DNA of 49,620 bases from a virus: positions 1-49,620 of IMG/VR virus record IMGVR_UViG_3300027674_000005; one strand, given 5' to 3'. Of this stretch, positions 1 to 49,620 are shown in pieces. The notes below the pieces were generated by a model, which saw only the letters and a list, made by a program, of their open reading frames with translations, was not told the origin of the DNA and did not search any database. The translations under genes and the position numbers were made by a program. Within the stretch, counting starts at the first letter, position 1. Every line of letters starts with the position of its first letter.

Positions 1-453
1 GATATCGCGAACGGGGCGCGTGTGCGTCTGCCTGCGTCGCCCCCGCCTGCCACAGTGCGGGCAAGGATAGGTTTTCGGAGCGCACTGACGCTGTACCACG
101 CGAACGCGGGGTTGAACGGCTTCCACTTCGGCCATAAGTAGATCATAGCCCCCAGCAATGTGAGGATGCACCACGTGCCCCCTAACAGTAGGCCAACCCA
201 TAGCACGAACATCATGTTGGGCTCCTTTGGTAATGGGCCGCCAAACTTTCGCGTCACCCCCAGGCGGTCTGACCCTACATGCCAGGGTCACCCGGCATTG
301 ATTACGGGCGATTCCAGCGTCCGCCAGCATCCGGTCGAGGGTCTGCCCCACCATGCCCCGGAAAGGCCGCCCTAGCCTCACGTCGTCAGCCCCAGCGACA
401 TCGCCGACGATCATGATCCGGGCATCCATCGGCCCCTCACTCTGCACATCCAT
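1..453 (-). CDS. UDG-DNA polymerase fusion, N-terminal part (truncated at window edge)
   Basis: This is the N-terminal half of a family 4/5-type uracil-DNA glycosylase domain, which removes uracil from DNA. It is joined in the same polypeptide to a family A polymerase whose remainder is at 48338-49620. The glycosylase signature near residues 12-35 reads RIMIVGDVAGADD then GRPFRGMVGQ, followed by CRVRPP and a GWPT...VHPHIAGG stretch typical of phage UDG-polymerase fusions. Motif 1 is degenerate (GDVAG where GEAPG is usual). The ATG at 453-451 overlaps the upstream stop (TGATG) and follows GAGAGG. After QPRVRVV the last 30 or so codons hold a C-x6-C-x2-CG cluster that does not match the family. 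The frame running off base 1 is one nucleotide out of register with the C-terminal half at the other window end, so the seam is suspect. Confidence 0.8.
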   Translation of the reverse strand, partial: MDVQSEGPMDARIMIVGDVAGADDVRLGRPFRGMVGQTLDRMLADAGIARNQCRVTLACRVRPPGGDAKVWRPITKGAQHDVRAMGWPTVRGHVVHPHIAGGYDLLMAEVEAVQPRVRVVQRQCAPKTYPCPHCGRRGRRRQTHTRPVRDI

Positions 454-9297: not shown

Positions 9298-9549
9298 TCA
9301 ATCGTCGGGAAACTGACAACCACCCTTACCTTCAAACTCTTTCTCGGAGAGGTGTGGCACACTCTTGTCCGCTACCTTCTTGACCCGTTGATATAGGTCA
9401 TCAAACTGCTCCCAATGGTCGGAGATTGTGTACCGTTCTGGTAGTGCCCTCACGCCGTAGCCCGATGCTGCAAGTCTGGCGATGGTGAGGGCGGCCAACA
9501 GAATCGGTAATTCCTCCGCTGGGATATTAAGCAGCGCGTTTTTCGTCAC
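9298..9549 (-). CDS. hypothetical protein, GTG start
   Basis: 83 residues. A helical hydrophobic start (TKNALLNIPAEELPILLAALTIARLA) is followed by a polar body. The GTG at 9549 is preferred to the ATG two codons upstream because AAGGAGG is 6 bases from the GTG but abuts the ATG. It overlaps the end of the upstream gene by 23 bases. Confidence 0.6.
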   Translation of the reverse strand: MTKNALLNIPAEELPILLAALTIARLAASGYGVRALPERYTISDHWEQFDDLYQRVKKVADKSVPHLSEKEFEGKGGCQFPDD

Positions 9550-10030
9550 CGCCATCCTCCTTGAGCAAGTCGTCGAGTACGTCATCGCCCTCGGCCTTTC
9601 CTTCTGCGCCCTTGATCCTCGCGATGATGGTTGCAACCCGTTCCGTGTTGCGCAACTTCGCTTGGGTGGCCTTGCTCATTCCCTTAACCAGCTTCTCGCT
9701 GTCGGCCACGTCGATGCCCTTCAGTTCGGCCAGTGCCTGCACAAGCGGACTGTACTTGCTAGTCCCTTCACCCTGCGTGCTCCACTTACCATCATCGAAG
9801 GCGTCACAAAGCGCGTCAACCTTCTCCACGGCCTTGTCCGTATCATCGGTGGCATTGACAGCGTTGAGTAGCTTCGTCTTTGCTCCGTAGGATGCGAATT
9901 GTTGCGTCAACGCATGGTCGGGGCTAAACGCCACGGACCGCTTCTGTCCATTGCTGAACGTGAGATGGTGTACGAAGCTACCATCCTCATGGTGCGTTGT
10001 CTCAATCTGTACTTTCGATGCCTTGGCCAT
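9527..10030 (-). CDS. conserved-type phage hypothetical protein
   Basis: 167 residues: beta-rich start (KVQIETTHHEDGSFVHHLTF then NGQKRSVAFSPDH) and helical C-terminal half, ending in an acidic then basic tail (DDLLKEDGGDEKRAA). I know similar 'HEDGS..H.L.F.NGQ' proteins from other phages as unnamed early proteins, but no function is established. It overlaps the upstream gene by 29 bases. Confidence 0.65.
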   Translation of the reverse strand: MAKASKVQIETTHHEDGSFVHHLTFSNGQKRSVAFSPDHALTQQFASYGAKTKLLNAVNATDDTDKAVEKVDALCDAFDDGKWSTQGEGTSKYSPLVQALAELKGIDVADSEKLVKGMSKATQAKLRNTERVATIIARIKGAEGKAEGDDVLDDLLKEDGGDEKRAA

Positions 10031-10409
10031 TCTCTAACTCCAATTTGTCTAAATCCCCCCAATCTACTTCCTGGGGGTCTGCTGTCATCGTGATCGGTGC
10101 CTCCATCGCTGCAACTTGCGCACGCATCTCCGGGGAATTCACACGATTGACGATAGTAACAAGATTCTGATTTATCTTGAAGGTGAAATACTTACAAGCC
10201 TTCGATAGTTCGTTGTCCGGCTCAAAGTGCAGTAGTGATTCTCGCAACCTCCATAGACGTGCCTTGGTATTGGTGGCTTGGTTCGGGGTATCGAACGTCA
10301 TCGTTAGCTTGCCGTGCTTCACAACGTAAAGCAAGTTCTGGAAATCTACGGGCAGAAATCGGTCAAGAGGCGTTGGGTTGCGTGCTCTCGGCTTCTTCTT
10401 TGTTGCCAT
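10002..10409 (-). CDS. hypothetical protein with basic N-terminus
   Basis: 135 residues. The basic start MATKKKPRARNPTPLDRFL leads to an alpha/beta body with the segment ATNTKARLWRLRESLLHFE. TTGGAG precedes the ATG. It is the first gene after the long AT-rich gap, so it may be expressed from a promoter there. Basic residues suggest nucleic-acid contact, which is not proven. Confidence 0.65.
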   Translation of the reverse strand: MATKKKPRARNPTPLDRFLPVDFQNLLYVVKHGKLTMTFDTPNQATNTKARLWRLRESLLHFEPDNELSKACKYFTFKINQNLVTIVNRVNSPEMRAQVAAMEAPITMTADPQEVDWGDLDKLELENGQGIESTD

Positions 10410-31879: not shown

Positions 31880-34713
31880 TGGGTGACGCTAAACCCCTTC
31901 GTGTTCCACTGGTTGAGCCCCTGGAAACGCGGGATGCTACTACGTTCTACGACGCCAAGGCAATCAACTGCCTGACTGAACAGACGCCCCGTGGAATGTT
32001 GATGGCCCGCAAGCGGCCAGGGCTTGCTACAGCCTTCACAGGAACGGTGGGGGTTGGTCAGGGTATCACGAACTACCAGAACCACATCTACTCGATCAGC
32101 GGAGATACGTTCAACGTATTGACAGGAAGTAGTGCTGCTTTCACGGCATTGCAGGCTACTCCCACGGCAGCATTCGGTAAGCGGGTAGGCCCTATTACTG
32201 TGGGGTTCAATGGGTTCCTTTACGTTATGGGTGGGATCAACTCCTCTGGCACGGCCCTCAACGACGTGTGGAAGAGTGCAGATGGGATTAATTGGACCCT
32301 TGTGACGTCTAGTGCGCCGTGGTCTGCCCGCTCCAAGGGGCAAGCAATCGTTTTGAACAACACCCTCTACTTGATGGGTGGTGCCACTGGTGCCAACGGC
32401 ACCCACTTTGGTGATGTGTGGTCTACAACGGATGGAATCAACTGGACACAGTTGAATGCCAATGCATGGCCTGGGCGACGCAGGTTCGGCGCAATGGTGA
32501 TGGGTGGGCAAATATGGATCTGTGGTGGGGCGGGTAAGACCTCCAACACGAGTCCTGACGGATTCTACCCTAACACTAAGTACAGTGATGTATGGTCCAC
32601 GAGTAATGGCATCACATGGACCCAAGTAGCCAATACGTCCCCATGGGTAGCGCGGAGTGACCACGCCTTCTATAGTATTGGCAGCACGATGTATGTCTGT
32701 GGGGGCCTGTTGATTGATGCCTTCGCCAATGCAACCTCTGACCTATGGAGTAGTACCAATGGTAGTACATGGACCCTTGTCAATTCTAATCCTTTCGGAG
32801 TTGCCTCAAGCCCCCTCTGGCCTATCGCAGCCCTCAACTCAGCCGGGGCAGACTTCCCCATCCCGTCCGCCGTTACCGTGGGATCAGGCACTGCAACGGG
32901 CTTTGCGTTCTCCGACTTCGACGACGACTCAGACGACGACTGCTTCGCCGGACCCTACGTGGAAGTCACCTTTGGAAACCCTGGATCGGGTTACACCGCT
33001 ACCCCAACGGTAACGATGGGAACTAACGTTGGCTTCAACGCAAAGCCCTATGCACTTCTAGACGGTACATCCAATGGGGGATCTAAGGCGGTGCGGGTAG
33101 CAACGTTGAATGGTGTTACCTACCTGTTGGAAATCAGTGCCACTGGCACCTACGATCACGTGCTGTGGTCCACTACCAATGGTATAACCTTCACGAACAC
33201 GAATACGGTTTTCACGGCTGGGTGGATTCCCCGTGATGGGGAGTTCTTCGCTCAAGGGAACCTGTGGTTCACGGCAGGACTTGATGGGAGTAATAACTAT
33301 TATCAGGATGTGTGGTTTATCTCCGCTGGTGGTACATCTTTTGCCCTGAACCCGACAGTACCGCTGGGCTTCTACCACTTCAATCAAACATCCTCGACGA
33401 TCACCTCCCCCCTGCTTGTCTTCAAGTCCACTGGTGACCTTTATGACTACAATGCAGCGTTGAACTCGTTGACTAAGCTGACAGCCAATGCTAATTATCC
33501 CGTCACTACGGTGCCTGGGCTGGTCAACCTGGACACGTATTTCTTCGTGATGGATCCGCAAGGGCGGATATGGAACAGCAACCCTAACGATCCGACAACA
33601 TGGGGGGCTCTTCAATTCATCCCCATGCAGAACGAGCCTAATGGTGGTGTAGCCATTGCGAAGCTGGGACAGTTTGTTGTGGCGTTCGGGCAATGGACAA
33701 TTGAGTTCTTCTACGATGCAGCCATTCCAAGTCCGGCATCGCCCTTGGCACCACAGACCTCTCTCCCGTTTGACATTGGTTGTGCCAGTGGCGAGTCCGT
33801 TCGAGAAATGCAGGGTAACATTGTATGGATCGGGCAGACGAAGGCAGAGGGTGCAGGCGTGTACATGTTCCAAAACTACACTCCTGTCCGCATCTCTAAC
33901 CCTTACATTGATCGGATCCTCCAGAATGATCCACTGACCAACATCACTGCATTGAACGTGGATGCCTCGGGCTATTCCCTCTATGTGCTGACCCTTCACA
34001 CCAGTGGCATCACTCTGGTCTATAGCTTCGCCAGTAAAATATGGGACGTATGGACAACTACTACGGTCAAGGGGTCGGTGGCTGTACAATCGTTGACTTG
34101 TGATCCTTATGGATTGGTGACGGCCATTGCTACCTCACATGGACTTAGTGATGGTGATCCCGTGACAATCTCTGGTGCAGCCAACAATGCCTACAATGGA
34201 TTGTGGAATGCAATGGTCACAGGCTCCTCAACGTTCCAGTACGTTCTTCCACAGGCAACAACTGCCAATCCGGGGACAGCCACGCTAACGGGCTACACTG
34301 AAGCAGCGTTCAATCCAGTAGCTAGCGCCCAAGTACTCGACATTGATTACCTGCAAGATCCTGTCAATGGAAACATCTATTCACAAAACTTCACCAACTA
34401 CAGTGACGGGACAGTACCTATCAACGTGAGAATTGTGACGCAGAGGTTTGATGCAGACACTAGCGAATGGAAGTATTGTCGCCGCATCTCGTTGATTGGG
34501 GACATTGTGGCTAGTAACTGCATGCTTGCCTATAGTGACAATGACTACCAAACGTATAGCCTGTTCCGAACTATGTCACTTAATCAGGGGCAAAGGGCTA
34601 CAATAACTCCTGCGGGACGATTCCGCAGTAGGGCCTTTCAGATCCGTCACACAGCTTTCACCCCCTTCCGGGCAATGGCCCTCGAACTTGAACTTTTGCC
34701 GGGAGGCTTCTAA
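31879..34713 (+). CDS. P22 gp10-like tail hub with Kelch-like propeller insert
   Basis: 944 residues. The N-terminus (KPLRVPLVEPLETRDATTFY, then AKAINCLTEQTPRGMLMARK) and C-terminal half (from about 500) match packaged-DNA stabilisation proteins. Residues about 105-490 contain six repeats of the form 'LYxMGG...DVWxSxDGxxWT', Kelch-like beta-propeller blades, unlike P22 gp10. The insert may replace or add to the needle/receptor interface. The gene is much longer than P22 gp10 (about 470 residues). Confidence 0.8.
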   Translation: MGDAKPLRVPLVEPLETRDATTFYDAKAINCLTEQTPRGMLMARKRPGLATAFTGTVGVGQGITNYQNHIYSISGDTFNVLTGSSAAFTALQATPTAAFGKRVGPITVGFNGFLYVMGGINSSGTALNDVWKSADGINWTLVTSSAPWSARSKGQAIVLNNTLYLMGGATGANGTHFGDVWSTTDGINWTQLNANAWPGRRRFGAMVMGGQIWICGGAGKTSNTSPDGFYPNTKYSDVWSTSNGITWTQVANTSPWVARSDHAFYSIGSTMYVCGGLLIDAFANATSDLWSSTNGSTWTLVNSNPFGVASSPLWPIAALNSAGADFPIPSAVTVGSGTATGFAFSDFDDDSDDDCFAGPYVEVTFGNPGSGYTATPTVTMGTNVGFNAKPYALLDGTSNGGSKAVRVATLNGVTYLLEISATGTYDHVLWSTTNGITFTNTNTVFTAGWIPRDGEFFAQGNLWFTAGLDGSNNYYQDVWFISAGGTSFALNPTVPLGFYHFNQTSSTITSPLLVFKSTGDLYDYNAALNSLTKLTANANYPVTTVPGLVNLDTYFFVMDPQGRIWNSNPNDPTTWGALQFIPMQNEPNGGVAIAKLGQFVVAFGQWTIEFFYDAAIPSPASPLAPQTSLPFDIGCASGESVREMQGNIVWIGQTKAEGAGVYMFQNYTPVRISNPYIDRILQNDPLTNITALNVDASGYSLYVLTLHTSGITLVYSFASKIWDVWTTTTVKGSVAVQSLTCDPYGLVTAIATSHGLSDGDPVTISGAANNAYNGLWNAMVTGSSTFQYVLPQATTANPGTATLTGYTEAAFNPVASAQVLDIDYLQDPVNGNIYSQNFTNYSDGTVPINVRIVTQRFDADTSEWKYCRRISLIGDIVASNCMLAYSDNDYQTYSLFRTMSLNQGQRATITPAGRFRSRAFQIRHTAFTPFRAMALELELLPGGF

Positions 34714-35228
34714 TGTCATCCGCAATGAACATCACCCTCGAACCCTTCACAAGGGAACTAGCTACGGAGATTACCCCCCTTGGGCAACAAGCGTGGGACG
34801 AGTGCTCGGAAATAAAGAAGGATACGTGCGCTTACCACGGGCAGCGGGGGTTGCCCATCGACCCTAACATTGACCAGTACATCCGCCTGTCGGATAACGG
34901 GGCGCTGGTGGCGATGACCCTTCGCAGCGACGAGGGCACCTTGCATGGATATGCGCTGATGGTCCTATACCACAGCCTGCACTTAAAGAATGAGTTGTGT
35001 GGGAACGTGGATACCTTCTTCATACAACCCGACCACAGGCAATTGATGCCACGATTCATGTCACGGATTGAGGATGAATTCCGGTCCCGTGGCGTCAGTA
35101 TTGTAGGGTGGCCTGTGACTATGACAGGGAAACTGTTTGAGATACTGAAGAAGCGTGGCTATATAGCCGACGATGTTATTATGGAATTGAAGTTGAAAGA
35201 CCTTCCTGGGGATAAATCATGTGTGTGA
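34713..35228 (+). CDS. GNAT-like acetyltransferase
   Basis: 171 residues. GYALMVLYHSLHLKNELCG, then VDTFFIQPDHRQ and FEILKKRGYIADDVIMELKL follow GNAT strand-helix order. The acetyl-CoA loop (usually QxxGxG/A) is degenerate here (PDHRQLMPRF). GNAT-fold genes beside tail/ejection genes are common in podophages, but their substrate is unknown. TAATG overlap with the gp10-like gene. Confidence 0.72.
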   Translation: MSSAMNITLEPFTRELATEITPLGQQAWDECSEIKKDTCAYHGQRGLPIDPNIDQYIRLSDNGALVAMTLRSDEGTLHGYALMVLYHSLHLKNELCGNVDTFFIQPDHRQLMPRFMSRIEDEFRSRGVSIVGWPVTMTGKLFEILKKRGYIADDVIMELKLKDLPGDKSCV

Positions 35229-36451
35229 TCGCAGGAGCAGTTGGCGCAGTTGCGGGTGGAGTTGGCTCACTGGTCAACGCCACAAGTGGTGGTGGAGGGG
35301 GTGGTGGATCCGCTCCTCCTCAAGGCGGTAATGTACAAACTGTTTACAATCCACAGTCCCTTGGGCAGACGATGACCGGGATCCTCAGTGGTGGCTTGTC
35401 CACTGCATTGGGAATTAGTGGACTTGCCGGTGGGAACCTCAACCAGTTGCAGGCGGGTGCGGCTGCGGCCAACCCGTGGGGAAGTCAGGCCCCCGGATAC
35501 TATGGTGCATTGTCCTCACTGCTTGGTGGCGGTCTCCAAAACCAAATCAGCGGAGAGCAGGGGCAGAATCAAGGCTACTTGGGCATGCTCAATTCACAGA
35601 ATGCAAGGGCTTTGAATTCAGCTAACCTGGGACAACTTGGGCAATTGGGAAACATTTCTACCCCAGGAGCTACCAGTGCTATGCAAGGGTTGGTGACCAA
35701 TCCACAGTCCGCCTCCTTGCCCTCAAGCATCCAGAATATCCTGGCACAGAATCCTTATGCAATGAATGCAGGACAACAGTTCCAATTCCAGCAAGGGGAG
35801 AATGCACTGAACGCTACGATGGCTGCGCAAGGGTTCTCTGGTAGTGCCCACCAAATGTTGGCCCTTCAGGACTATGGGCAACAGGCTGCTAACACGGCAA
35901 TGGGGACTAACATCCAAGCAGCGTTGGGAGCGGAGCAGGCACAGCAAGGAGCCTTTGGACAACAAGTTGGGGCATTGGGCTCTCTCTCGAACATCCTGTC
36001 ACAGCAGCAGCAGAATTCATTCGGGAATCAGTTGGGTGTGCAACAGTTCGGCGCGGGATTACAGCAACAGGCTTATGGCAATCAGGCGGGCATCCTCAAC
36101 TCTATGATGCAGATGAACAGTACGCAAAGTCAGTTGATGGAAGGTCTGTTGCCATCGTTGTTGACTGCAACGCAGGCGACGACTAGCAGTCCATCTACGG
36201 CAGGGGGCATCCTGGCCAACCTCGGAGTAGCCAATCAGGGCAGTGCGGGGAACATCGGCGCAGGTATTGGGGGGCTTGCCAACGGCATTGGCAGCCTCGC
36301 CAACGGGCTCTCGAACATGAATTGGGGTGGAGGTGGCGGCAGCTACAGCGGGGCCTTCAACACTGGCGCAGGCACCACAACCTACGATCCAACCGGTGGC
36401 GGCAGCAGCTACACCTACAGCGGTGACAATAGTTACGGCTTCACAATGTAA
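35219..36451 (+). CDS. internal virion / ejection protein 1
   Basis: 410 residues. A Gly/Ala N-terminus (MCVIAGAVGAVAGGVGSLV) with hydrophobic character, Gln/Asn/Gly-rich middle (FGQQVGALGSLSNILSQQQQ), and low-complexity Gly/Ser tail. Position before two more ejection-type genes and the composition resemble P22 gp7-type DNA transfer proteins that leave the head and enter the envelope. No enzymatic motif. Confidence 0.68.
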   Translation: MCVIAGAVGAVAGGVGSLVNATSGGGGGGGSAPPQGGNVQTVYNPQSLGQTMTGILSGGLSTALGISGLAGGNLNQLQAGAAAANPWGSQAPGYYGALSSLLGGGLQNQISGEQGQNQGYLGMLNSQNARALNSANLGQLGQLGNISTPGATSAMQGLVTNPQSASLPSSIQNILAQNPYAMNAGQQFQFQQGENALNATMAAQGFSGSAHQMLALQDYGQQAANTAMGTNIQAALGAEQAQQGAFGQQVGALGSLSNILSQQQQNSFGNQLGVQQFGAGLQQQAYGNQAGILNSMMQMNSTQSQLMEGLLPSLLTATQATTSSPSTAGGILANLGVANQGSAGNIGAGIGGLANGIGSLANGLSNMNWGGGGGSYSGAFNTGAGTTTYDPTGGGSSYTYSGDNSYGFTM

Positions 36452-46078: not shown

Positions 46079-47243
46079 AGGCTTGCTCACCTCCCTTCGT
46101 ACACGTCACAATCATCCGGGACTTCAACAGTCCCATCAACAGTTCCTTAAATCCCTTGTCCGTAGGTGCCACGCTTCTCATGAAGCGTGCTGCCTCATTC
46201 ATTGTGACACCAGCAGCGCCTCCTCTGGTGATGAAATCAAGTAGCCTATCGGAATTGTTAGATGCCTCACTTCGTCCGATGCGATCAAATATAGATGGTA
46301 GGCACTGTTCGAGTCGAGATACTTCGGCTTCGGCACGCTGAAGGTCTTCTGCGGTGATGACTCGTTGGTCTCCCCGTGCCGCAGAGAGGACCATCGCGAG
46401 CTTATGGATGTGCGACTGCTTCCTTGCATTCCATCCACCAAAGCGGCTATCATCTTTCCCTTTCGCGTGAAGAACGTTGTGGGCTTCATACCAGTCAGTG
46501 CCCCACGCCAAAGCACTCTTGTCCAGCTTAAATTCTCCTTCCATGCGCCCAATTGCATTAAGATCATCAACCAAGTGGCGGTGCAACTCTTTCCGTAAGG
46601 GTGTATCTCCCGTAGGGTAGGCAATGAGTTGCCGTTTCGATTCCGCGTAGACCCACACGATACGCGAGACAAGCCCACCATCAAGCATGTAGGCCGGAAA
46701 GTTTCCACTGATCCAGGACGGTGTAGTACACGCCAGGAGATTGAGGAATGGGGAAGATATTGTCTGTTGTCCATCTGCCTTTGTCGCCTTTTCAATTGAG
46801 CCACAGTCCCACATGGTGTTGAGCATGTCCATCATTTCGTTGTCGTCGGGACGAATGAGGTTACCAAGCTCGCCGGAGTGGATCGTCAGGGAGTACGTGG
46901 CTTCATTCTCCCCATTGTAGTTTGTAATAGTCTCGGCCTTCAATAAGCATTCGATCAAGGCTTGCCATGTGGTAGTTGACGGCCCGAAGATCACGCCATC
47001 CACCTTTCGGAGCATCCTCATGGCAGTACCAGTGGTGGTCGTTTTTGCAATAATCCCTGGAGGAGCCACAAGAACTACATACATGTTTGGAAACCACCAG
47101 AAATCTCCTTGCGATACGTAGCACTTACGCTGAAGAGCCCCCGCTATTGCGGAGGCCCCGGACCAAAACAACACGTGATTGGGCGCCTCTCCTGCCTGCC
47201 CATACTCGATGAAACCATCGAGCCAATTGTCAACCTTCCTCAT
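46059..47243 (-). CDS. DUF3987-like primase/helicase ATPase
   Basis: 394 residues. MRKVDNWLDGFIEY..., with APNHVLFWSGASAIAGALQR, and YVVLVAPPGIIAKTTTTG as a P-loop (APPGxxxKTT near 60-70), IHSGELGNL and NLLACTTPSWI match the family of DUF3987 P-loop ATPases in phages, thought to serve as replicative helicase or primase-helicase. The C-terminus has a wHTH-like region. The start follows GGGGGA and overlaps the polymerase gene's stop (ATGA). Its end overlaps the endolysin end. Confidence 0.78.
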   Translation of the reverse strand: MRKVDNWLDGFIEYGQAGEAPNHVLFWSGASAIAGALQRKCYVSQGDFWWFPNMYVVLVAPPGIIAKTTTTGTAMRMLRKVDGVIFGPSTTTWQALIECLLKAETITNYNGENEATYSLTIHSGELGNLIRPDDNEMMDMLNTMWDCGSIEKATKADGQQTISSPFLNLLACTTPSWISGNFPAYMLDGGLVSRIVWVYAESKRQLIAYPTGDTPLRKELHRHLVDDLNAIGRMEGEFKLDKSALAWGTDWYEAHNVLHAKGKDDSRFGGWNARKQSHIHKLAMVLSAARGDQRVITAEDLQRAEAEVSRLEQCLPSIFDRIGRSEASNNSDRLLDFITRGGAAGVTMNEAARFMRSVAPTDKGFKELLMGLLKSRMIVTCTKGGEQAFRVQLF

Positions 47244-47956
47244 TGACAATCCCCCCAACTTTTCGTAGAAGTTTTTATCCCTATTGGAATTAATAGCGGG
47301 TCATCATATGGAATAGGAACCTTGCACTGTTCTCTGATAGAAAGTTCATGCAATTCCTTATTTTCTATCGGGTACTGTAGAGTCAGTGAGTCGTGAACTT
47401 GTAAAAGCACCTCTACTCGGGGCAGGTTAGAGTCAACATTGACATATATCTTGTTGATAAGCACAGCAATCGACGATTGAGGTAGCCATGCTACCATTTC
47501 ATTGAGCGTATTCCCCTCAATCCTATCGAACCACTTCTTCCTATAACCAAACGCATTAGAAACAGTCGCAGTCCGTATACACTTCTTAACAAAATCCTCC
47601 TGCCACTTTTGAATCTCGGGGAACATCCCAAAGTACCATCTCTGAATCCGTTCAACTTCTTTGACCAGTAGCCCGCACTGCCCCGCAATAGTCGGTGCCT
47701 TACCGAGATAGTTCGTCGCATGGCACAGTTTTTTGAACGTATAGTAATGGGGCGAAGCCTTGTTGATCGACGGATCATGAAAGTACTCCCTTGCGATAAC
47801 GAGATAGGGCTTCAAACCTTCGCGAAAAAGGTCCTTCATCCCTTGGCAGTTCGATTCCTGGACAACTATCCTCAGGTCCGCCGAGTCCAGATCCAGATCC
47901 CCCATCATCATGCCTTCGTCCGGCACGAACATCTTCCTCACATTGGGCATCGACAT
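47240..47956 (-). CDS. family A DNA polymerase, catalytic palm/fingers part (split gene, C-terminal)
   Basis: 238 residues with the catalytic part of family A DNA polymerase. RKMFVPDEG near 8-15, motif A GDLDLDSADLRIV at 19-31 (D22 aligns with the catalytic Asp), motif B KKLCHATNYLGKAPTIA near 75-91, and motif C LLQVHDSL at 184-191 (D189). The rest of the polymerase (UDG, exonuclease, thumb) is in a separate gene at 48338-49620. The split falls between NLQNI and the RK.FVP.EG segment, normally contiguous. ATG at 47956 is in frame with motif A and preceded by GGTGG. The upstream gene overlaps it by 182 bases out of frame. Confidence 0.9.
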   Translation of the reverse strand: MSMPNVRKMFVPDEGMMMGDLDLDSADLRIVVQESNCQGMKDLFREGLKPYLVIAREYFHDPSINKASPHYYTFKKLCHATNYLGKAPTIAGQCGLLVKEVERIQRWYFGMFPEIQKWQEDFVKKCIRTATVSNAFGYRKKWFDRIEGNTLNEMVAWLPQSSIAVLINKIYVNVDSNLPRVEVLLQVHDSLTLQYPIENKELHELSIREQCKVPIPYDDPLLIPIGIKTSTKSWGDCQ

Positions 47957-48326
47957 CTGAGACCACCATTCCTTTCATTGTTTGTTCAAGGTCCGTCAAC
48001 GCACCAATGGAGTCTTTGAATGCGTCACGGGGCTTGTGCCACTGGTTCCCGCCGTTGTGTCCACCACGACGAGCCCATTCGTTAGGGTTGAACGGGTTTG
48101 GTCCTAGCTTGTACAGCAGAGAGGGCTTCTTCCCACCCTCCAGGCGCTTCTCGGGGCATCGTTGTAGCATTCCCAAGTGCTCCATCTTCCTGATGGCTAC
48201 ACCGATACAGTCCTCGCCTAGTTGCAACTCTCTTCGTAGCTCCACTCTGGTGGCGCAACCCTTGTCTACGATGTATTCATTGATCCGTTCTGCTGCGAAC
48301 GGCACCTTAGGGTCTTTGAGTCCCAT
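47775..48326 (-). CDS. winged-helix-like protein between polymerase halves
   Basis: 183 residues. Residues 1-75 (KVPFAAERINEYIVDKGCAT, then RVELRRELQLGEDCIGVAIR, and KMEHLGMLQRCPEKR) read as a winged helix, then PNPFNPNEWARRGGHNGGNQW, a motif I associate with short phage replication-region proteins. From about residue 122 the frame is the out-of-frame reading of polymerase motif A DNA and looks unselected. The start MGLKDPK follows GAGGA. An ATG 4 codons upstream overlaps the polymerase stop (TAATG). It separates the two polymerase parts. Confidence 0.72.
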   Translation of the reverse strand: MGLKDPKVPFAAERINEYIVDKGCATRVELRRELQLGEDCIGVAIRKMEHLGMLQRCPEKRLEGGKKPSLLYKLGPNPFNPNEWARRGGHNGGNQWHKPRDAFKDSIGALTDLEQTMKGMVVSDVDAQCEEDVRAGRRHDDGGSGSGLGGPEDSCPGIELPRDEGPFSRRFEALSRYRKGVLS

Positions 48327-48337
48327 TCTTATCCTCA

Positions 48338-49620
48338 TTAGTCACCAGACGTTATGTTCTGCAAATTACAACCTGATCCGAAGGCATCGGTGCTGCTAGA
48401 GAATCTAAAAGTGATGGTCCCTGTAATGTTGTACGAGCAGTGGATGCGCCCATCATACCCAATCGCGTTTGACTTAAGTGCATTCGACGCGAGGGTTTCA
48501 CAGCTACGAAATTCTTTGATACGCCGTACCACAGGGAACAGTATCGGTTCCTTACTGGCAATCTTATAGAGCGCCTCGTCGTCACAGGATAGTGCCTTCG
48601 TTTTTCTATTCCGTACGGGTGCAACACCCATCTCCTCATAGAAGAAATGCTGCATCTGTTTCGACGACTTCGGGTTAAGGGCATAACCGACCATCTCCGT
48701 GACCTCAGACTGTAACGTGTTCGCATGATCCTTCAACTCCTTCAACATCCTTTGGCGTACTTCGTTGTCCACTCGAACACCACGAGCCATAGTCCGAAGA
48801 ACAGGTGTAAAGAGCGATTGTTGAAAGTCGTGTTGCGTACGCAAGCCCATTCGATCGACCACTTCTTGTAGCCTCGTATCGGCCTCAAACGTCCTGATGC
48901 AATCCTCACAGTTGTACGCCCAATACTTATCTTCATCCTGATCGGCTCCCTTGTCCCATTCCTTGCCGTCATCCTTCCAGTAGACGTACCACTCACAGTA
49001 CATCGACGCGATGTAGTCTAGCGATTTGGGCATTCCCGTGAAACATACATGCTGGGCAACCATAGTGTCACGCACGTTTCGCGGGATGAAGTGCCAATGG
49101 CGAAGGATATATTGCGAGTCGTAAATAAAGTTCTGCCCGACTGTGAGTACATTCGGGTTTGTGAGTAGCCGATAGAGCAGCCACACAATCTCAGCCTCCT
49201 CCCCTTCACTCCAGTAGCCTTGGGGGTTCTCGACGCAGAGCAAAGGGATACAGATAGCATCGGTGTTACTCCAGGCAATGCCAAGGCACGCTATGTGACC
49301 GGCACGGGTTTCAATGTCACAAGCCAGCTTCAAGGGGCCTTGTTGACTCGCTTGATAGAGGCTTTCGAGAGATTCCCGCACTTGGGACATCGTAGGCCGT
49401 ATTGTAAAGTTCCATGTTGGTCGAACAGGAGCCCTACCAGCAGCATCGGTGACACGCCGCAAGTCCTGCACGCAACATGGCTTAGATGCCCGTTGTCGCA
49501 AGACACGGGAGGGGTGATAGGCAGGTATGACAAGGCCGTGCTCCGTTTCGAGATACGATCCCCTCCACTTGTCAACGCTGGTGAGACCAGTGAGTGCCCA
49601 CAAGGCAAGATCACCGAGGG
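48338..49620 (-). CDS. UDG-DNA polymerase fusion: UDG C-terminus, 3'-5' exonuclease and thumb (split gene, N-terminal)
   Basis: Continues across the seam from 1-453. Numbering from the first internal start (49603): ALTGLTSVDKWRGS and IPAYHPSRVLRQ near residues 3-37 are the C-terminal half of a UDG (HPS motif). LACDIET at 93-99 is Exo I (D96, E98), VGQNFIYDSQYI near 155-166 is Exo II (D162), and YNCEDC near 230-235 is Exo III (Y230, D234). A thumb-like helical stretch follows, and the gene ends at NLQNITSGD before a TAA. The palm motifs A, B and C are missing and lie in 47240-47956. Proofreading residues look intact. A codon for LGDLALW precedes the first start and fits the UDG consensus. Confidence 0.88.
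   Translation of the reverse strand, partial: LGDLALWALTGLTSVDKWRGSYLETEHGLVIPAYHPSRVLRQRASKPCCVQDLRRVTDAAGRAPVRPTWNFTIRPTMSQVRESLESLYQASQQGPLKLACDIETRAGHIACLGIAWSNTDAICIPLLCVENPQGYWSEGEEAEIVWLLYRLLTNPNVLTVGQNFIYDSQYILRHWHFIPRNVRDTMVAQHVCFTGMPKSLDYIASMYCEWYVYWKDDGKEWDKGADQDEDKYWAYNCEDCIRTFEADTRLQEVVDRMGLRTQHDFQQSLFTPVLRTMARGVRVDNEVRQRMLKELKDHANTLQSEVTEMVGYALNPKSSKQMQHFFYEEMGVAPVRNRKTKALSCDDEALYKIASKEPILFPVVRRIKEFRSCETLASNALKSNAIGYDGRIHCSYNITGTITFRFSSSTDAFGSGCNLQNITSGD

Follow-up and report, generated by a model that had tools for sequence, protein, structure and literature searches.

The window considered here, the whole stretch of DNA analysed at its full length of 49,620 bases, is the complete virus record of a tailed phage that encodes a large terminase, a portal and a major head protein, and the two ends of the window lie inside minus-strand reading frames that both look like parts of one protein. 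This raises the question of whether the ends are two broken genes or a single gene opened by the linear map. The frame 453-1 is stop-free to the window edge and encodes the N-terminal half of a UDG, including GRPFRGMVGQ and CRVRPP, and the frame 49618-48338 runs from LGDLALWALTG through HPS into a 3'-5' exonuclease (PF01612, E=1.7e-10) and the N part of PolA (PF00476, E=1.5e-16). An alignment of 15 relatives' proteins together with the window's C part matches the solved UDG TM0511 (1vk2) at E=1.7e-26. The N-terminal UDG of the UDG-exo-PolA phage polymerases is therefore present in the window, as is the exonuclease followed by PolA (PF01612 and PF00476), and the domain order in the phage would be uracil excision, proofreading and then polymerisation. 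The domains are not carried on a single chain in the window, since a stop ends the frame at 48338 and a separate ORF encodes the PolA C part (Table 1). The gene entering at 49620 accordingly holds the C-terminal UDG half followed by the exonuclease, as the earlier note on this DNA had described, but not the whole polymerase.

Table 1. Features of the polymerase gene region at the two ends of the window
Feature	Coordinates	Strand	Details
Putatively extraneous 95-nt tail past the true UDG sequence	1..95	-	66% G+C; contains CPHC codons; delimited by join scan
UDG N-terminal half of the UDG-exo-PolA gene	96..453	-	ATG at 453; PF03167 E=1.8e-12 (frame 453-1, unjoined N arm)
UDG C-terminal half, 3'-5' exonuclease and PolA N part to NLQNITSGD	48338..49620	-	TAA 48340-48338
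Candidate cargo ORF, 187 aa, between the polymerase parts	47775..48338	-	ATG overlaps polymerase stop (TAATG)
PolA C part (MSMPNVRKMFVPDEG...), motif A onward	47240..47956	-	PF00476 E=9.3e-18, profile 140-357

Comparison with related records supports the proposal, made in the earlier note, that the two ends are halves of one UDG-exonuclease-polymerase gene. The UDG of contig G002 used as a query matched 27 of 28 records. In the window the match was divided, residues 1-119 lying at one end and residues 121-179 at the opposite end, while 26 of the 27 other records have a single stop-free piece over the window's break point, the remaining one (G018) being a fragment without a UDG match. None of these 27 encodes the UDG halves in two separate genes, the case that the earlier note had named as refuting its own proposal. 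In G002 (49,407 bp) the halves adjoin in mid-contig, at 33767-34123 and then 34127-35404, with one codon between the matches, and they adjoin in the same way, again with one codon between, in G003 (52,064 bp). The product of 96..453 is 61% identical to that of G002 across 119 residues, and the product of 48338..49620 is 76–77% identical to those of loci L002-L005.

The same records bear out the circular map. The ORFs along G002-G005 that match those of the window are collinear with it after rotation, and terminal overlaps (99–455 bp, 95–100% identity) occur in 14/14 of the long relatives included in the end-overlap test, a set that lies apart from other long contigs such as G029 and G031-G038. 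These overlaps measure 100–455 bp at 95–99.5% identity in G002-G005 and 99–219 bp at 99–100% in G006-G010, G021, G025, G027, G028 and G030, that of G009 finishing 14 bases before the contig end. Since all 14 have overlapping ends, contigs of this group as a rule close into circles. The ends of the window itself share no exact repeat of 5–199 bases in either orientation, so that the circularity of the window is argued from its relatives.

Read straight across 1|49620, the two frames differ by 2 nt (equivalent to 1 nt in the other direction), and the last 31–32 codons of the N arm, CPHC among them, have no counterpart in relatives. Both features had been pointed out before, and the frame break had been ascribed to a single extra or missing base at the joint. 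To locate the join, positions 60-140 of the window were combined with positions 49620-49596 and scored on a profile of the UDG of 23 relatives from which the window was excluded; 2,025 joins were tried, 681 of them contained a stop codon and were dropped unscored, and 1,344 were scored. The best join, 96|49620, reaches 212.6 bits (runner-up 209.0), compared with 117.4 bits for the unjoined ends as given and 119.0 bits for the N arm alone. It restores the frame, supplies the codon GCC (Ala) seen between the halves in G002 and G003, and gives ...QPRVRVALGDLALWALTG, which aligns in register with the L003 sequence ...RPTVIIALGNTALWALTG. As the best of the scored joins, 96|49620 places bases 1-95 outside the gene; the frame break is then explained by 95 leaving a remainder of 2 on division by 3, and the odd CxxC (CPHC) codons by their location in the 95-base tail. 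A one-base assembly error at the 49620/1 joint would fit the difference of one nucleotide modulo 3 between the frames, but it would not account for the roughly 31 codons without a fit to any relative, and it is removal of 95 bases that lifts the family score by 95 bits; such an error is scarcely credible, and the extraneous tail accounts for the frame break in its place. A 23-base pattern spanning the 96|49620 join matched no viral contig, in a scan from which the record of the window and its closest neighbours may be missing. Taken together, the window is very probably a single tailed-phage genome whose map is circular (circularly permuted) and was cut within the UDG domain of the replication polymerase gene, bases 1-95 being extraneous, and the true gene would run from 453 down to 96 and then on without loss from 49620 to 48338. 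The relevance of the seam is one of annotation: the ends should not be recorded as two broken genes, nor bases 1-95 as phage protein.

The tail most likely represents a chimeric, mis-joined or wrongly extended contig end. No match to it emerged, at the sensitivities used, when viral and genome contigs were scanned with exact and degenerate patterns, plasmids and E. coli with blastn, and plasmids and phages with tblastn, and these searches offer nothing to suggest that it derives from a transposon, a plasmid, a phage or E. coli. Against the other collected loci blastn returned nothing better than E=0.047, and the three minus-strand frames of the tail have no Pfam match above cut-off. The C side starts exactly where the tail diverges and the abutment is precise. 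Because a k-mer overlap would be expected at a simple de Bruijn contig end, a contig-end artefact explains this precision incompletely, and the edge of an insertion would also suit it. We also considered the alternative that part of the population carries a real insertion in its UDG gene, such as a transposable or homing element, with 1-95 as the first bases of the insert. The tail does leave the gene at one exact base, with the C arm taking up at the next, and it is an open frame containing CPHC and RQTHTRPVRDI, which may, as a lead only, resemble transposase zinc ribbons. However, the flanks abut exactly with no target-site duplication, the C side carries no foreign bases, the database and contig searches just described were all negative for the tail, and a stretch of some 31 codons easily stays open by chance at 66% G+C (an estimate rather than a computed value). 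An insertion is for these reasons unlikely, and we retain the faulty contig end as the preferred origin of the tail.

The place of the cut could itself be meaningful if the genome were a linear molecule whose physical end always lay within the UDG gene, so that this gene became whole only once the genome had circularised in the cell. The UDG domain is also where two of 14 further circular contigs, namely G004 and G005, are opened, making three such circles counting the window, and two cuts of 14 in a 620-bp target give a binomial P=0.014 for a target that was chosen after the fact. The end overlaps of both G004 and G005 nevertheless read through the place, and in G002 and G003 the cut lies at another place and the UDG is uninterrupted. 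Nor are the ends of shorter contigs gathered at the seam: of the 38 ends of 19 such contigs, the 35 that could be placed on the window all lie outside the UDG domain, although zero among 35 would be 63% likely by chance alone. The cut-site data are thus no good evidence for a fixed end, which we reject as very unlikely. The seam is in itself unremarkable: the circular map of the phage was opened within a gene, and a contig end there is bad.

The natural split that lies beside the seam is a better lead than the seam itself. The window polymerase stops at 48338 and resumes at 47956 with MSMPNVRKMF. By alignment, the break site in solved Taq polymerase falls between NLQNIP and RIRRAFI, and the stretch that follows is presumably the one named motif A. 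The modelled structure of L010, a fused relative (791 residues, mean pLDDT 89.3), has only two segments of at least 3 residues under pLDDT 50. One of them is 550-554, and from the coordinates this segment directly precedes residue 555, the start of the C part. The natural gene break at 48338/47956 leads us to propose a two-chain polymerase: the enzyme appears to be made as two chains, which we infer to assemble.

The split recurs among relatives. Split and fused polymerases number 19 and 14, respectively, among 33 rows, several of which are near-identical and one of which (L024) is scored as split though its locus ends before any C part. Among a further 80 loci, the best 80 of 462, 63 are fused, 15 are split (10 of these being contigs already counted) and 2 have no N part in reach. 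On a tree of 27 rows, which omits the long-branch L149 and L189 and the near-identical L007-L009 and L027, the split state occurs in several lineages and requires at least three changes of state. A single origin of all split polymerases is rejected on this tree (106 log-likelihood units worse, p-AU 2e-58), the single-split clade tested being a group named after an earlier tree had been seen. The gaps between the polymerase parts range from 1 to 1,130 bp, and at small-gap loci the stop and start are adjacent or overlapping. At five loci (L015, L019, L215, L222 and L243) the gap is 1–20 bp and holds no cargo. Gaps this short make an intron impossible at these five loci. At the gathering score Rfam found no intron match in the window or in nine split relatives, and at a lax threshold the window gap gave chance-level matches only, so that an intron in the polymerase gap has no Rfam support; divergent group I introns are possible.

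Where the gap is longer its contents vary. The cargo ORF of the window, the 3' part of which overlaps the PolA C part in a different frame, is winged-helix-like (NrtR_WHD, E=0.031, below cut-off), and the gaps of L002-L005 encode HTH proteins, that of L003 with an HNH endonuclease in addition. The gaps of L006, L026 and L144 encode pyrophosphatases (PHROG pyrophosphatase, E=8e-66 to 7e-24) that we call MazG-like, a name of our own for which Pfam gives weak support in L026 only, and L007-L009 have the same ORF as L006. ThyX is found in the gap of L023 and dUTPase in those of L025 and L028, L027 being identical to L025 in the tree rows, and the gap of L239 also contains ORFs. We consider it an evenly balanced proposition that the loop before motif A is a recurrent fission point and the gap a cargo site, with a two-chain, stop-start-coupled enzyme rather than an intron. 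The UDG domain would then sit on the N chain of the two-chain polymerase, the break would be a regulated or tolerated slot for cargo, and the cargo may often act on dUTP/dTTP pools (dUTPase, ThyX, MazG-like) or be DNA-binding or HNH. If the chains assemble into a working enzyme, the loop shows where a family A polymerase tolerates cutting, and, if the cargo proposal is true, the gap ties replication to uracil control within one transcription unit. A literature search covering few subscription journals found no account of this loop as a recurrent site of fission and cargo.

Elements of this arrangement have precedents. A UDG-exo-PolA polymerase has already been described for phage PaBG and the Lupandier phages, and it shares with the window an N-terminal UDG followed by the 3'-5' exonuclease and a C-terminal polymerase; there it is one protein of a jumbo phage, whereas the homologue in the window is split before motif A and belongs to a 49.6-kb phage (PMC7412058). 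The OM43 phages MEP401 and MEP402 have a split PolA for which the authors suggest an intron, with the exonuclease and PolA N part and the C part in two ORFs and a small ORF between, as in the window, but no UDG is described for them (PMC10580990). The window likewise has the exonuclease and N part in one ORF and the C part in another across a gap, but comparison of the sequences puts the MEP401 break elsewhere, at ...KTLFLSRYGE / MILNADAKALEW. In the Mic1 cyanophage, DNA polymerase gamma is encoded by two ORFs separated by 298 bp, which its authors call an intron; the split falls within the PolA motif region as it does in the window, although the polymerase is of a different subfamily (PMC7156551). 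The break of the window is shared by Vibrio phage vB_VspS_VS-ABTNL-3 (MF497422, host Vibrio splendidus), where NLQNLPKGDG precedes the stop and the C part resumes with ...LPNIKKLF. An ORF again lies between the polymerase parts, without a family match, and the polymerase is distant from that of the window (33% identity).

Two relatives depart from these layouts in other ways. In L014 the fused polymerase (frame ending 8925) has an insert of about 270 residues in its C part that starts CLTAGHEVLTPDGW and ends VTGN, and that may be an intein. The polymerase match of L148 (Caulobacter phage Kuura, OQ067476) is spread in two pieces over several genes, and separate ORFs precede the annotated DNA polymerase; the UDG and polymerase may be separate genes in this phage.

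The UDG itself also varies. Within window 280-405 on the minus strand the motif reads GDVAG, compared with GEAPG in most relatives, and TLA replaces the TNV of relatives. L008/L009 and L018 are likewise altered at the UDG motif, and, judged from these motif changes in the sequence, the predicted glycosylase may be weakened in some members. In G011, the contig of L006, the UDG at 9536-10068 is in two frames, the pieces of which overlap at 9838-9853, unlike the near-identical L008 and L009 where it is in one frame; the two-frame UDG of G011 is probably an indel or an assembly error.
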